From Cloacibacterium normanense (lineage in GTDB: Bacteria; Bacteroidota; Bacteroidia; Flavobacteriales; Weeksellaceae), in NCBI RefSeq assembly GCF_003860565.1, contig NZ_CP034157.1:434001-498000 (forward strand): a stretch of 64,000 nucleotides of DNA. The letters run 5' to 3'. The notes under the pieces are model-generated. The model worked only from the letters and a program-made list of their open reading frames with translations, did not search any database and was not told the DNA's origin. The translations under genes were made by a program, and so were the position numbers. Below, in pieces: positions 4,958 through 64,000 of this stretch (positions are counted from its first letter, which is position 1; each line of letters begins with the position of its first letter).

Positions 4958-6367
4958 ATGAAAAGAATGTTTCTTTTGATGCTTGCAGCATCTTTTGTGG
5001 TTTCATGTTCTAAAGGTGGAGGAAGAGCAAGCTCTGGAAAACCAGACTCTAGAGGAGAATTGGTGCCAAAAGAAAGTAAAAAATCTTTCGAGGCTCAAAG
5101 ACCTTACGGTATGGTGGCCATTCCTGGTGGTTCTTTCGTAATGGGGCAGGCTGATGCAGACTTTACCGCAACACCAGAAAAAGCTCCTCTGAAAACCGTT
5201 ACCGTTTCTTCATTTTTTATGGACGAAACAGAGGTAACCAATTCAGAATACAGACTCTTCGTAAACTATGTAAGAGACTCTATTGCAAGAACATTATTAG
5301 CAGAAGCTGCAGGTGATGATACCAATGAAGATGGAATAGGGAGATATGCTTTTTTAGCTAAAAAAGCGGGTGATGATGCAAACGCATATCAAAAATATTT
5401 AGAAGCTCAAGGTGATAGAGACGGGTACAATGATTCTAGAAAATTAGATTGGAGAGTGCCATTATACTGGAAAACTGGTCAATATCCTGACGAAAAATAT
5501 GCAGAAGTAATGGAATCTCTTTACTTACCACCAGCTAAAAGAATTAACAACGAAAGACTTCTCGATACTCAGAAATTAAAATATTCTTACGAGTGGGAAG
5601 ATATAGCAACTGCGGTAAAAGATAAAACAAGAAGTGCAAGCTATCTTAAAAAAGAAAGCATTGCTGTTTATCCAGATACAACAGTTTGGGTTAAAGATTT
5701 CAACTATGCATATAACGAACCTTTATTTGATAGATATTTTTGGCATAGAGCTTATAAAGATTATCCAGTAGTAGGAGTAACTTGGGATCAAGCAAGAGCT
5801 TTTTGTGATTATAAAACGAAAGCAAAAAGAGACTACGTAAAATCTGGTAAAAAAAGAGGAGACAATCCTATGAAATTTAGACTTCCAACAGAAGCAGAAT
5901 GGGAATACGCAGCAAGAGGTGGTCTAGAAAATGCAACTTATCCTTGGGGTGGTCCTTATCTTACAGATGATAGAGGTTGTTATTTAGCAAACTTTAAACC
6001 GAAAAGAGGTAATTACATAGAAGATGAAAAGAAAGGGACTTATCCATATACAGCTCCAGTAAAAAGATTCCATAGAAATGGTTTTGGTCTATATGACATG
6101 GCTGGAAACGTTGCAGAATGGACGGAGTCTCCTTACAGCAACTCTACTTATCAATTCTCGTCAACTTTAAATCCTTACTTATCAAACCAAGCCTACAGAG
6201 AACTTAAAAAATCTGTAAGAGGAGGTTCTTGGAAAGATGTAGGTTACTTATTAATGACAGGCTATAGAGACTGGGAAAGAAAAGATTCTGCAAGAAGTTA
6301 TATTGGTTTTAGAACTATTCAAGACGTTCCTGCAGGAACAGCTAGATTGAGAAGATCAAGCAAATAA
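4958..6367 (+). CDS. gldK: Gliding motility/T9SS outer-membrane lipoprotein GldK
   Basis: GldK (PorK) is a lipoprotein that with GldN forms the periplasmic ring under the outer membrane in the type IX secretion and gliding machinery. Residues 1-17 (MKRMFLLMLAASFVVSC) are a lipoprotein signal with Cys17. The body has the formylglycine-generating-enzyme/SUMF1 fold: MVAIPGGSFVMGQ near residue 51, FFMDETEVTNSEYRLF, FRLPTEAEWEYAARGG, YDMAGNVAEWTES and SVRGGSWKD. The copper-binding Cys pair of true formylglycine enzymes is not evident, as expected for GldK. Length 469 fits the family. It is first in gldK-L-M-N and has its own candidate promoter. Confidence 0.96.
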   Translation: MKRMFLLMLAASFVVSCSKGGGRASSGKPDSRGELVPKESKKSFEAQRPYGMVAIPGGSFVMGQADADFTATPEKAPLKTVTVSSFFMDETEVTNSEYRLFVNYVRDSIARTLLAEAAGDDTNEDGIGRYAFLAKKAGDDANAYQKYLEAQGDRDGYNDSRKLDWRVPLYWKTGQYPDEKYAEVMESLYLPPAKRINNERLLDTQKLKYSYEWEDIATAVKDKTRSASYLKKESIAVYPDTTVWVKDFNYAYNEPLFDRYFWHRAYKDYPVVGVTWDQARAFCDYKTKAKRDYVKSGKKRGDNPMKFRLPTEAEWEYAARGGLENATYPWGGPYLTDDRGCYLANFKPKRGNYIEDEKKGTYPYTAPVKRFHRNGFGLYDMAGNVAEWTESPYSNSTYQFSSTLNPYLSNQAYRELKKSVRGGSWKDVGYLLMTGYRDWERKDSARSYIGFRTIQDVPAGTARLRRSSK

Positions 6368-54595: not shown

Positions 54596-54616
54596 TGTTG
54601 GTATAGTATTTCTGCT

Positions 54617-54780
54617 AACGGTTCGGCGGATTTGCGAAGTCCCGAGAAGGAAGTTTACTTCCGTTCTTGGGATTTTGCAAATTCACAGATGTGCGAAGTT
54701 CGCGTAGCGACGAGCAACATCTGCGGATGTAATCCGCCGAACCGATGTGGCAAAAGGAGCGGAGCGGATTTTGCCACATC
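54617..54780. repeat. Cloverleaf-like inverted-repeat element (candidate structured leader or MITE)
   Basis: CGGTTCGGCGGATT (54619-54632) pairs perfectly with AATCCGCCGAACCG (54731-54744), enclosing two hairpins: 54632-54680 (stem GGAAG-TTTA-CTTCC at its tip) and 54686-54723 (CAGATGT with ACATCTG, containing TCGC-GTA-GCGA). A third hairpin follows: GATGTGGCAAAA (54744-54755) with TTTTGCCACATC (54769-54780), 12 bp perfect. The segment is much richer in G+C than its surroundings. It has no ORF of its own. Confidence 0.85.
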
Positions 54781-60517: not shown

Positions 60518-63358
60518 ATGACAAATTCTGACAAAAGACTTTTTCTCATCGATGCTTATGCGATGATTTTCCGCGGTTATTACGCCCTGATTAGAAATCC
60601 TAGATTAACTTCTAAAGGTTTTGATACGTCTGCTATTTTTGGATTTACCAATTCATTAATTGAGTTGATTAGAAGAGAAAAACCTACACATTTGGCTGTG
60701 GTTTTTGATGTAGGAAAAGAAAATGTGAGAACCGCAGATTTTACAGAATACAAAGCCAACAGAAGTGACACTCCAGAAGCGATAAAAAACGCAGTTCCAT
60801 ACATTCACAGGATTTTAGAAGCTATGCATATTCCAATTTTGGGAGTAGAAGGTTATGAAGCAGATGACGTGATAGGAACGATTGCCAATAAAGCCGAAAA
60901 AGAAGGGTACACCACGTTTATGGTAACGCCAGATAAGGATTTTGCGCAGTTGGTTACCGATAAAATTAAAATCTACAAACCGGGTTTAAAAGGTGGCGAT
61001 GTAGAAATTTTAGGCGTGGAAGAAGTTAAAGCCAAATACGAAATTGAAGACCCAAAACAAGTCATCGATTTTCTGGCAATGATGGGAGATGCGGTGGATA
61101 ATATTCCAGGATTGGAAGGAGTGGGCGAAAAAACTGCCATGAAATTTTTGAAAGAATTTGGCAGTATAGAAAATCTTTTGGCAAACACCGACCAGCTAAA
61201 AGGAAAACTCAAAGAAAAAGTTGAAAACTCTGCAGAAAGAGGGATTTTGTCTAAAAAATTGGCAACGATTATTTGTGACGTTCCCGTTGAATTTCACCAG
61301 GAGCAATACGATTTAGATATTCCAGATTTTGAAAAAGTTCGTGAGATTTTTGACGAAATAGAATTCAGAAGGTTGTATGAGAATTTGTATAGGGCTTTTC
61401 ATGAGCAATCAGAAATCAGCAATCAGCAATCAGCGAATGAAAGTGATTCAAAACCAGTCTCGCAGAATGCGGAAAGCGGAAAGCAGAATGCTCTACAATT
61501 AGACCTTTTCGCAGATTTCGAAGCGCTAGAACAATCTACTTCTACTACGCTCAATATCGAAACTACGGATAAAATTTATCAATACATTGATACCGAAAAA
61601 GCTCAGAAAATTTTAGTCAAAAATCTTTTGGCACAAAAAGTAGTTTGTTTTGATACAGAAACGACTTCGCTTAATGAAATGGAAACCGAACTCATCGGGA
61701 TGAGTTTTTGTTACAGAAAAGGATTGGCTTATTACATTCCGATTTCTGAAAACCAAGAAGAAGCGAAGAAAACGTTAGAAATTTTCCGTCCGTTTTTTGA
61801 GAAAAAAGAAATTTTAAAAATCGCTCATAATCTTAAATTTGATTATAAAGTTCTGAAGCATTACGGTGTGGAAGTAGAAGGAGCGATTTTTGACACGATG
61901 ATTGCCCATTATCTTCTAAATCCAGACGGGAGACACGGAATGGATTATCTTTCAGAGATTTACCTCAATTATAAGCCTGTCTCTATTGAAAGTTTAATTG
62001 GCAAAAAGGGTAAAAACCAAGGAACTTTGCGTGATGTTTCGTTAGAAGAACAAACCAATTACGCTGCGGAAGATGCAGATGTAACGTTTCAACTCTACGA
62101 AATTTTTGCGCCTCAACTGAAAAAAGAAGGGGTAGAAGATTTGTTTTACCACATCGAAATGCCATTAATGCGCGTTTTAGCTAAAATGGAATTTGCGGGA
62201 ATTTCTTTAGACGAAAGTTGGTTGATTCAAGAAAGTAAGGATTTAGAAAACGACTTGAAAAACCTTGAAACCAAAATTTTTGAACTCTGTGGCGAAGAAT
62301 TTAACATGAATTCTCCGAAACAACTCGGTGAAATTTTATTCGAAAAGTTAAAACTAGACCCGAAAGCGAAAAAAACCAAAACCGGTCAATACGCTACTTC
62401 GGAAGATATTTTGCAGAAATTGGCTTCTAAACATGAAATTATACAATACATTTTAGAATACAGAACCTACCAAAAATTGAAATCAACGTATGTAGACGCA
62501 TTGCCGAATCAGATTGACAAAGACACGAAAAGAGTACATACCAATTTCTCGCAAACTACTGCTGCTACAGGAAGATTGGCTTCTCTGAACCCAAATTTAC
62601 AGAATATTCCGATTAGAACTTTACGTGGTCAACAAATTCGTGGTGCTTTCGTGGCAGATAAAGGAAACAAACTTATTTCTGCCGATTATTCTCAGATAGA
62701 ATTGCGCTTGATTGCAGAAATTTCGGGTGAAGAAAACATGATTAAAGCCTTCCAAAATGGCGAAGATATTCACGCTTCTACTGCGGCAAAATTATTTAAA
62801 ATCCCAATCGAAGAAGTAACAAAAACGCAGCGTTCACAAGCTAAAACTGTGAACTTTGGAATTATTTATGGTCAAGGTGCTTTTGCTTTGGCAGAGCAAA
62901 CTGGACTTTCACGAACGGAAGCAAAACAACTCATCGATTCTTACTACGAAACCTATCCTAAATTGAAAGAATTTATGGCAGAACAAGTTGCGAAAGCCAG
63001 AAAATTAGGATATGTAGAAACAATTTTGGGCAGAAAACGCCATTTGCAAGACATCAATTCTAATAATTTTGTGGTAAAAGGTCACGCCGAAAGAAATGCT
63101 GTAAATGCACCGATTCAAGGTTCTGCTGCAGATATTATCAAATTGGCGATGATTAAAATTCAGGAAGTTCTGGAACAGGAACATCTGAAAACCAAAATGC
63201 TCTTGCAAGTGCATGACGAATTGGTTTTTGAAGCACCAGAAAATGAAGTAGAAACCGCCAAAAAACTGATTAAAGAAAATATGGAAAATGCCTACAAAAC
63301 TGAAGTTCCTTTATTGGTGGAAGTTGGCGTGGGTGAAAATTGGTTGGAAGCGCATTGA
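60518..63358 (+). CDS. polA: DNA polymerase I
   Basis: PolA (946 residues) fills repair and lagging-strand gaps. ATG 60518 (MTNSDKRLFLIDAYA) is chosen; the 28-codon extension upstream overlaps the promoter and is unconserved. The 5' nuclease domain covers about 1-290 (KANRSDTPEAI; GYEADDVIGTIA). A Ser/Gln/Asn-rich linker at about 296-330 follows. The proofreading domain is intact, with exo I motif FDTETTS (Asp379, Glu381). The polymerase has motif A SADYSQIELRLIAEISG, motif B RSQAKTVNFGIIYGQGA and motif C QVHDELVFEAP. The linker is built of repeat DNA (61404-61491). Confidence 0.96.
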   Translation: MTNSDKRLFLIDAYAMIFRGYYALIRNPRLTSKGFDTSAIFGFTNSLIELIRREKPTHLAVVFDVGKENVRTADFTEYKANRSDTPEAIKNAVPYIHRILEAMHIPILGVEGYEADDVIGTIANKAEKEGYTTFMVTPDKDFAQLVTDKIKIYKPGLKGGDVEILGVEEVKAKYEIEDPKQVIDFLAMMGDAVDNIPGLEGVGEKTAMKFLKEFGSIENLLANTDQLKGKLKEKVENSAERGILSKKLATIICDVPVEFHQEQYDLDIPDFEKVREIFDEIEFRRLYENLYRAFHEQSEISNQQSANESDSKPVSQNAESGKQNALQLDLFADFEALEQSTSTTLNIETTDKIYQYIDTEKAQKILVKNLLAQKVVCFDTETTSLNEMETELIGMSFCYRKGLAYYIPISENQEEAKKTLEIFRPFFEKKEILKIAHNLKFDYKVLKHYGVEVEGAIFDTMIAHYLLNPDGRHGMDYLSEIYLNYKPVSIESLIGKKGKNQGTLRDVSLEEQTNYAAEDADVTFQLYEIFAPQLKKEGVEDLFYHIEMPLMRVLAKMEFAGISLDESWLIQESKDLENDLKNLETKIFELCGEEFNMNSPKQLGEILFEKLKLDPKAKKTKTGQYATSEDILQKLASKHEIIQYILEYRTYQKLKSTYVDALPNQIDKDTKRVHTNFSQTTAATGRLASLNPNLQNIPIRTLRGQQIRGAFVADKGNKLISADYSQIELRLIAEISGEENMIKAFQNGEDIHASTAAKLFKIPIEEVTKTQRSQAKTVNFGIIYGQGAFALAEQTGLSRTEAKQLIDSYYETYPKLKEFMAEQVAKARKLGYVETILGRKRHLQDINSNNFVVKGHAERNAVNAPIQGSAADIIKLAMIKIQEVLEQEHLKTKMLLQVHDELVFEAPENEVETAKKLIKENMENAYKTEVPLLVEVGVGENWLEAH
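61404..61491. repeat. Word-like repeat DNA inside the polA linker
   Basis: CAATCAGAAATCAGCAATCAG and related CAATCAGC units (61404-61436), then GAATGCGGAAAGCGGAAAGC with AGAATGC (61464-61491), encode a linker read as QSEISNQQSANES and NAESGKQNA. Such word repeats otherwise occur between genes. Confidence 0.8.
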
Positions 63359-63370
63359 TTTTGAGAGGGA

Positions 63371-63430
63371 GAATGGTAGAGTTAGAGAATGGTAGAGTTA
63401 GAGAGTGGTAGAGTTGGAGAATTGGAGAAG
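63371..63430. repeat. 16-bp quasi-tandem repeat after polA
   Basis: GAATGGTAGAGTTAGA occurs twice in direct succession (63371-63402), then as GAGTGGTAGAGTTGGA, then as the partial GAATTGGAGAAG. Confidence 0.92.
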
Positions 63431-63467
63431 TTGCTTTTCTAAAAAATCAAAATTTATTTTTAAAAAA

Positions 63468-63760
63468 TTGCTTCGTAGAAGCAAAAGGTTTGTAGAAAAA
63501 ATATAGAATTTGAAAGGAAGTTCCGTAGGAACGATAGATTTTTAAGATTTGGAATTTATTCCAAACATTAGAGTTTAAAAGATGTTTTTGCTTCGTAGAA
63601 GCAAAAGGTTTGTAGAAAAAAATGTAGATTTTGAAAGGAAGTTCCGTAGGAACGACAGATAATTTGAGGTTTTGAATTTATTCCAATAACAAGTATTAGT
63701 TTCAATAGGAACGGGCTTTAGCCCGTTTTAAAAATAAAAAAATCAATTGGCTTTAGCTAA
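63468..63760. repeat. Array of GTA- and TTTA-loop hairpins with a 120-bp direct repeat
   Basis: TTGCTTC-GTA-GAAGCAA (63468-63484, again 63588-63604), GTTCC-GTA-GGAAC (63520-63532, again 63641-63653), TTTGGAA-TTTA-TTCCAAA (63548-63565, degenerate copy 63672-63686), AACGGGC-TTTA-GCCCGTT (63710-63727) and TTGGC-TTTA-GCTAA (63747-63760). The first three modules and the sequence between them repeat at a spacing of about 120 bp. Confidence 0.92.
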
Positions 63761-63770
63761 AATTTAAAAA

Positions 63771-63798
63771 TACCAAATACCAAATACCAAATACCAAA
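63771..63798. repeat. Four exact TACCAAA repeats
   Basis: Four 7-bp copies in succession, followed by ATACGAATTACTAA, end 24 bp before the start of the YciI-like gene. Confidence 0.95.
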
Positions 63799-63822
63799 AT
63801 ACGAATTACTAATCAAAAAAAT

Positions 63823-64000
63823 ATGAAAACAGTTGTCCTTTACGAAACCGCACCAGATACAACTATGGAGAAAATGATGGAAGTTTTTCCTGCGCATCAA
63901 GCCAATGAAGAAATCTTTGTAAAAGCTGGAAAAATATTGGGAATTGGTCCGTTTGCAATTCCGGGAGAAGGAGCGATGGCGATTTTTACAGATAGAGAAT
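63823..64000 (+). CDS. YciI-family protein, N-terminal part (runs off the right edge)
   Basis: The 59 complete codons begin MKTVVLYETAPDTTMEKMME and continue VFPAHQANEEIFVKAGKILG, then IGPFAIPGEGAMAIFTDRE. This matches the ferredoxin-like fold of YciI/YCII proteins, with a His in FPAHQ where family members have a conserved active-site-like His. The frame is open to base 64000. Family function is uncertain. The start is preceded by an A-rich leader and the TACCAAA repeats. Confidence 0.8.
   Translation, partial: MKTVVLYETAPDTTMEKMMEVFPAHQANEEIFVKAGKILGIGPFAIPGEGAMAIFTDRE

Follow-up and report, generated by a model that had tools for sequence, protein, structure and literature searches.

Short hairpins downstream of polA in Cloacibacterium normanense: a probable gene-less, REP-like cluster of several Y1 transposase lineages

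The gap between polA and a yciI-like gene in a 64,000-nt stretch of Cloacibacterium normanense DNA (the window, taken from a 2.76-Mb single-contig genome) holds an array of very short hairpins, which is probably a gene-less, REP-like cluster of several Y1 lineages, moved in trans by TnpA of subclass 1.2. A REPtron-like system was found in a subclass of transposases for which none had been reported: hairpins of these kinds are associated with the transposase genes, hairpin type is specific to gene lineage, and stems covary. These patterns suggest that the elements are mobilised in trans and that the transposase reads the loop. Among the loci found, the nearest named relative by the C-terminal 299 aa of polA is Cloacibacterium normanense (99%).

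The array downstream of polA

The polA ORF ends at 63358 and the next gene starts at 63823. All eight GTA- and TTTA-loop hairpins that a sequence-only reading had placed in this gap were present as written (Table 1). The array has a 120-bp period, hairpins 1-3 and 4-6 being two copies of one unit, so the independent stems number five, not eight; the earlier description of eight separate hairpins stands as to their existence and falls as to their separateness. What had been taken for one modular system is partly plain tandem duplication and mixes hairpins of different transposase lineages. The first GTA-loop pair shares its layout with 42 CGTAG-12-TGTAGAA units and with the flank of an intact Y1 gene of the source genome (G000:C1:117689-118036). 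The layout of a GTA hairpin followed by a TTTA hairpin recurs in the flanks of relatives' transposase genes (L156, L157, L162 and L248), and the terminal TTTA-loop pair equals both flanks of a broken Y1 gene of the source genome (G000:C1:1761236-1761579).

Table 1. Hairpins and composite parts of the array (window coordinates)
Feature	Sequence or layout	Position	Strand
Hairpin 1	TTGCTTC-GTA-GAAGCAA	63468-63484	
Hairpin 2	GTTCC-GTA-GGAAC	63520-63532	
Hairpin 3	TTTGGAA-TTTA-TTCCAAA	63548-63565	
Hairpin 4	TTTTGCTTC-GTA-GAAGCAAAA	63586-63606	
Hairpin 5	GTTCC-GTA-GGAAC	63641-63653	
Hairpin 6	Degenerate copy, TTTA loop, one mismatch	63671-63686	
Hairpin 7	AACGGGC-TTTA-GCCCGTT	63710-63727	
Hairpin 8	TTGGC-TTTA-GCTAA, one G-T pair	63747-63760	
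Unit copy 1	TTGCTTC-GTA-GAAGCAA, AAGGTTTGTAGAAAA, AT-rich spacer, GTTCC-GTA-GGAAC, TTTGGAA-TTTA-TTCCAAA	63466..63585	+
Unit copy 2	As copy 1, third hairpin degenerate	63586..63690	+
GTA-loop hairpin pair, first copy	TGTAGAA between the hairpins	63468..63532	+
GTA hairpin and TTTA hairpin	About 16 nt apart	63520..63565	+
TTTA-loop pair	CAATAGGAACGGGC-TTTA-GCCCGTT and TTGGC-TTTA-GCTAA	63702..63766	+

Folding as single-stranded DNA gave z-scores of -4.4 (+) and -3.9 (-) for unit copy 1 and of -3.2 (+) and -3.1 (-) for unit copy 2; the TTTA-loop pair folded alone (63700-63766) was not above shuffles (z -0.95). In an Rfam scan of 63000-64000 and 63420-63800 the gathering score was reached by no family. 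The matches to Acido-Lenti-1 (16.1 bits, cut-off 37) and psRNA14 (16.3, cut-off 60) were weak and were rejected. A short tandem repeat of the ACCAAAT/ACCAAATA type lies at 63770-63800, just upstream of the next gene.

Abundance against chance

Hairpins were counted as perfect stems of at least 5 bp with at least two G/C in the inner five, and genic and intergenic DNA were separated on the basis of ORFs. The source genome was sampled as 20 stretches of 20 kb (400 kb), one of which (L087) contains the window array. Over the complete sample 17 intergenic GNA-loop hairpins were counted against 1.1 in shuffles, and 8 TTTA-loop hairpins against 0.6. With L087 left out, the intergenic counts were 13 against 1.3 for GNA (maximum of 50 shuffles, 4), 6 against 0.7 for TTTA (maximum 3) and 25 against 8.4 for other 3-nt loops. 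Intergenic ANA loops (14 against 2.9) were raised as well, less than GNA and TTTA. Inside genes, again with L087 left out, the counts lay near chance (GNA 21 against 17.0, TTTA 6 against 3.4). The comparison with shuffled sequence and with other loops, proposed in the sequence-only reading, came out in its favour, with intergenic GNA and TTTA up about tenfold and other 3-nt loops less.

In the sequence flanking 91 transposase genes (described below), 30 distinct 5-bp stems carried GAA/TTC loops (1.4 in shuffles), 13 carried TTTA/TAAA loops (0.5) and 7 GTA/TAC loops (0.6). The objection that all copies might be plain duplicates is valid for the tandem copies in the array and fails for the many distinct stems of these flanks.

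The pattern TTCCGTAGGAA was found at 45 sites in the source genome and its reversed pattern at 0; 18 of 20 sites checked lay outside ORFs of at least 100 aa. All seven genomes of the genus carried it. Like REP-type copies, the palindromes are dispersed and mostly intergenic. That chance short palindromes in AT-rich DNA, together with one tandem duplication, produced the array is barely conceivable and conflicts with the counts obtained: six of the eight hairpins do come from a unit present twice, but the intergenic enrichment is about tenfold even without the array's own stretch, and reversed-pattern controls gave 0 to 3 matches per genus genome against 7 to 58 for TTCCGTAGGAA.

Unit architecture and stem covariation

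Frequently two hairpins lie about 49 bp from each other and enclose TGTGTAGAAA or one of its variants, in single copies or in arrays; in G002, a genome of the genus, 15 exact TTCCGTAGGAA copies lie inside about 850 bp. The 49-bp tandem arrays were also considered as CRISPR-like, a reading that was dropped because the units bear transposase-flank hairpins and the spacers recur. Another tandem array of the source genome (G000:C1:1892700-1894000, locus L123) is made of units of about 110-140 bp, each with TTCCGTAGGAATCTAAAAG, and contains six exact TTCCGTAGGAA.

Forty-two distinct units, many of them from arrays L136 and L137, were selected for CGTAG and TGTAGAA a fixed distance apart, with no requirement for pairing. 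Pairing at stem positions 1, 3, 4 and 5 exceeded all 300 shuffles, position 2 was invariant, and positions 6 to 8 fell within the shuffle range. For the third hairpin of the window unit (14 units), stem positions 2, 3 and 5 were above all 300 shuffles and positions 1, 4 and 6 were not. The stems covary, and the earlier claim that loops are fixed while stems vary by compensating change was borne out in both sets.

Transposase genes and their framing hairpins

Of the seven genus genomes, 6 had matches to PF01797, as did 99 of the 148 family genomes. The source genome has six Y1 matches, two being pieces of one broken gene. Its GTA-lineage gene is intact and framed by GTA hairpins in inverted arrangement, and its TTTA-lineage gene is the broken one, framed by the CGGGC-TTTA / TTGGC-TTTA pair as in the window. 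No gene of the L156/L162 type was recognised in this genome, three of its six Y1 matches having been classified. Two near-equal-scoring Y1_Tnp-like ORFs (208 aa, E 1e-7) lie 1.8 kb apart at G000:C1:825139-825420 and 826963-827244 and align to a region of the profile that differs from the one matched by the genes of this analysis.

One hundred transposase loci were collected, 40 from profile searches and 60 hand-picked among the matches listed, mostly with open frames and from different genomes. The pattern Y---[QN]--[HN]H gave a gene at 91 of them; the remaining nine (L161, L164, L165, L202, L218, L240, L252, L254 and L255) were dropped. The printed motifs of the 91 genes were Y---Q--HH, accompanied in the proteins by HuH and WQ motifs, which is the subclass 1.2 signature; the class 2 motif Y---NP of TnpA-REP proper was not seen among them. 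Two of the proteins matched Pfam Y1_Tnp, and one gave a distant match to solved IS200-type transposases (2fyx, E 1.8e-7). A search for a RAYT transposase had been recommended on the basis of the array; a RAYT-like Y1 transposase is present, and its genes are framed by such hairpins.

An identical hairpin core was found on both sides of 55 of the 91 Y1 genes, compared with none across 50 shuffles, 8.6% among 3000 mismatched flank pairs and 1 of 328 ordinary genes of the source genome, that one gene being framed by the element of the 54.6-kb type. The remaining 36 genes had no common core on both sides. GNA or TTTA hairpins stood on both sides of 58 genes, upstream only of 6, downstream only of 23 and on neither side of 4. 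When the two flanks of each gene were aligned locally, 23 of the 91 genes scored beyond the 99% level of the null and 41 beyond the 95% level; because shared elements inflate this null, the hairpin-core test was preferred.

Such framing might be expected of remains of IS200/IS605 insertion sequences, or of MITEs derived from them, whose ends moved with their own gene and not in trans. The likeness to IS608 and ISDra2 extends to the Y1 HuH transposase, the distant match to solved IS200-type proteins and folded single-strand DNA substrates, and the inverted hairpin pairs frame the gene as IS ends might. This origin is nonetheless unlikely: gene-less hairpins far outnumber genes (45 TTCCGTAGGAA sites to 6 Y1 matches in the source genome), tandem arrays occur without a gene, the flanks of several genes are direct repeats or repeated units, and the subclass is described as low-copy and without IS properties (PMC6006769).

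Hairpin type and gene lineage

A quick tree of the 91 proteins was made, and 55 genes were labelled by hairpin type, mainly by loop class. One core was chosen where a gene had two, and L248 was grouped with AGA though its loop is AAA. Hairpin type changed 8 times on the tree, against a minimum of 7 and a shuffled mean of 30.9, a clustering to which near-copies contribute. The 15 TTTA genes formed a single clade (support 100); changes per type were 2 for GTA, 3 for GAA and 4 for AGA. Hairpin type follows the lineage of the transposase gene.

At the level of whole genomes, and with kinship ignored, the 99 with a Y1 match included 62 that carry GCTCCGTAGGAGC and 64 that carry CGGGCTTTAGCCCG, and the 49 without one included 2 and 5, respectively; the reversed controls for both were absent from all 148 genomes. 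The GTA hairpin occurred in 18 of 18 genomes with a fetched GTA gene (mean 7.3) and in 44 of 81 other Y1 genomes (mean 2.9), and the TTTA hairpin in 22 of 22 genomes with a TTTA-clade gene (mean 13.1) and in 42 of 77 other Y1 genomes (mean 3.1), the counts including the genes' own flanks and ignoring kinship. Each of the two hairpin types also turns up in many Y1 genomes from which genes of a different type were fetched; such genomes may hold further cognate genes beyond those fetched.

The polA site and a second site in relatives

Downstream of polA, the source genome and G002 carry two units and the TTTA element, G005 four units and the TTTA element, and G003 two variant units and the TTTA element. 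A single unit lacking the third hairpin, followed by other genes, was found in G001 and G004; at these two loci (L289 and L292) differing reading frames follow the single unit where other genomes have more units and the yciI-like gene. G006 has no repeats at the site, with 37 bp to the next gene, a polA end 96% identical and no Y1 match. Despite the lack of a Y1 match, 7 exact matches to TTCCGTAGGAA and one to CGGGCTTTAGCCCG lie elsewhere in G006, so hairpin copies can outlast or precede the gene. A second element, at the L112 site, is present in G000 (the source genome), G001, G002 and G005; in G006 it is absent and another short hairpin is found instead, and a different gene comes next in G003 and G004. 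Among 13 named loci compared downstream of polA, units were found in L003, L031 and L015; L034, L038, L041, L047 and L058 have a short gap, a similar next gene and no units, and L004, L008, L043, L062 and L069 have another gene order. Close relatives that differ in gene presence and in 0 to 4 units at one site provide direct test material.

Loops, strand and orientation

The earlier statement that only two loops are used is local to the array. Among 432 transposase-flank hairpins on either strand, the loops were GNA in 179, TTTA or TTCA in 106, ANA in 59, GNNA in 11 (5 of them GNRA) and UNCG in 0. The interpretation given in the sequence-only reading is partly supported; its core idea holds and its details have been corrected.

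These loop counts bear on whether the hairpins act at the RNA level, as terminators or mRNA stabilisers, with an incidental or historical link to the transposase. Five terminator-like sites occur in the region against 0.3 in shuffles, and polA directly precedes the array; yet four of the five lie on the strand opposite polA, the loops favoured in RNA are near-absent (5 GNRA and 0 UNCG to 179 GNA), and the identical hairpins that flank transposase genes are left unexplained. We consider an RNA-level role quite improbable.

Upstream of the gene, GNA loops lay on the coding strand in 70 cases and on the other in 0 (42 loci); downstream the ratio of coding to other strand was 33 to 76. TTTA loops followed no strict strand (35 to 12 upstream, 24 to 27 downstream). 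A sample of 30 loci from the phylum gave 22 that were assignable, 18 of these with the signature and 9 of those sharing a core. Their cores had GTA, TTTA, GTTA, ATA and other loops, the motifs at L266 and L282 being perhaps misread, and this sample showed no strand preference (GTA 4 to 4). A lagging-strand bias fell short of significance (p 0.14), one half giving 9+/3- and the other 8+/10-.

Neighbouring hairpins within 100 nt in gene flanks were mostly on the same strand (GNA 64 vs 11, TTTA 27 vs 12), and inverted neighbour pairs, the orientation required of a REPIN (two inverted REPs that form one larger hairpin), exist as a minority. Inspection of 5' feet by eye revealed no general rule in the flanks for the GT[AG]G foot of canonical REPs; TGTAG is present in GTA units, but about 20 nt from the next hairpin. 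The 3' flanks of GNA and TTTA hairpins start GAC/GAA- or T/A-rich.

A DNA energy model gave no advantage to GNA or TTTA. It assigns an identical value to every triloop and therefore cannot test stability by loop; TTTA and TAAA were among its lowest-ranked tetraloops. A T-A Hoogsteen pair is formed in TTTA DNA loops. Published work attributes extraordinary stability to DNA mini-hairpins that have a GNA or GNNA loop (PMC4686876) and ranks GAA first for stability among known DNA loops (PMC9828363).

Proposed mechanism and relation to known systems

In the reading that we favour, of a REP-like cluster moved in trans, a small HuH/Y1 transposase (PF01797, subclass 1.2) would act on one DNA strand in its single-stranded state and recognise chiefly the loop, as C-GNA-G or C-TTNA-G, together with a paired and largely sequence-free stem. 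Cutting and rejoining beside the hairpin would seed new copies, and slippage or recombination could later expand tandem units. Since recognition would rest on the loop and ask no more of the stem than pairing, compensating changes could accumulate in stems under constant loops. For the Marinomonas TnpA-REP, both Ts and the A of the TTNA loop are required, and exchange of the whole stem has a moderate effect where a mismatch is harmful; the Stenotrophomonas enzyme requires the first G of its triloop (PMC8266576). Recognition of this kind, with the loop read and the stem tolerated, would fit the rule seen here in another class of transposase.

TnpA-Y1 of subclass 1.2 is described as occurring mostly in Cyanobacteria and Bacteroidetes, at low copy number and generally without IS200 end structures, and REP is tabulated as 'no' for it (Quentin 2018, PMC6006769). 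The proteins studied here resemble that subclass in the Y---Q--HH motif, the length of about 150-180 aa, the few copies per genome and the occurrence in Bacteroidetes, and depart from the tabulated description in that matching hairpins frame 55/91 genes. With the REPtrons, formed by REP/REPIN and TnpA-REP (RAYT), they have in common short dispersed intergenic palindromes and a framed single-copy Y1 gene (PMC6006769, PMC8266576), as well as a lineage-specific hairpin type, the loop-reading, stem-tolerant recognition being known for two studied REPtron enzymes (PMC8266576). REPtrons belong to class 2 (Y---NP) and are described from Proteobacteria and other phyla (PMC6006769), whereas the present system is of class 1, subclass 1.2, has no general GT[AG]G foot and uses GNA, ANA and TTTA/TTCA loops. 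GTAG- and CGTC-tagged palindromic repeats likewise form families of stem-loops, single, paired or clustered, in which stem changes are complementary and loop formats few; most of their loops are described as fitting TY or CMA (PMC3733652), and their terminal tag is not the rule here. In the open-licence literature, judged by title and the start of the abstract, no paper on REPs of subclass 1.2 was found.

Subclass 1.2 TnpA across Bacteroidota may constitute a separate, unrecognised REP-like system, with its address in the loop (ultra-stable C-GNA-G triloops, or C-TTNA-G), drifting stems, dozens of families, gene-less spread in trans and tandem arrays; we give this wider proposal an even chance. 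For a transposase group whose descriptions include no substrate, these hairpins are a likely one, and the phylum concerned has poorly charted REPs. Many hairpins that stand unannotated in Weeksellaceae genomes probably have this origin. The simple rule, a loop that is read and a stem that need only pair, would indicate how single-strand transposases could tell elements apart.

The palindromic element at 54.6 kb

Two further hairpins, TCGC-GTA-GCGA and GGAAG-TTTA-CTTCC at 54.7 kb, had been assigned to the same kind; they sit in a different, longer palindromic element, and their membership is unsupported. The element (54607-54780 of the window) is a long imperfect palindrome, GGTTCGGCGGATT..AATCCGCCGAACC, with GGAAG-TTTA-CTTCC as its inner hairpin. 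Elsewhere in the genome, two related copies in direct orientation (L095:4262-4336 and 5084-5175) frame a 162-aa ORF and have ends of the form CTAAC..GTTAG. This arrangement resembles gene cassettes with attC-like sites.
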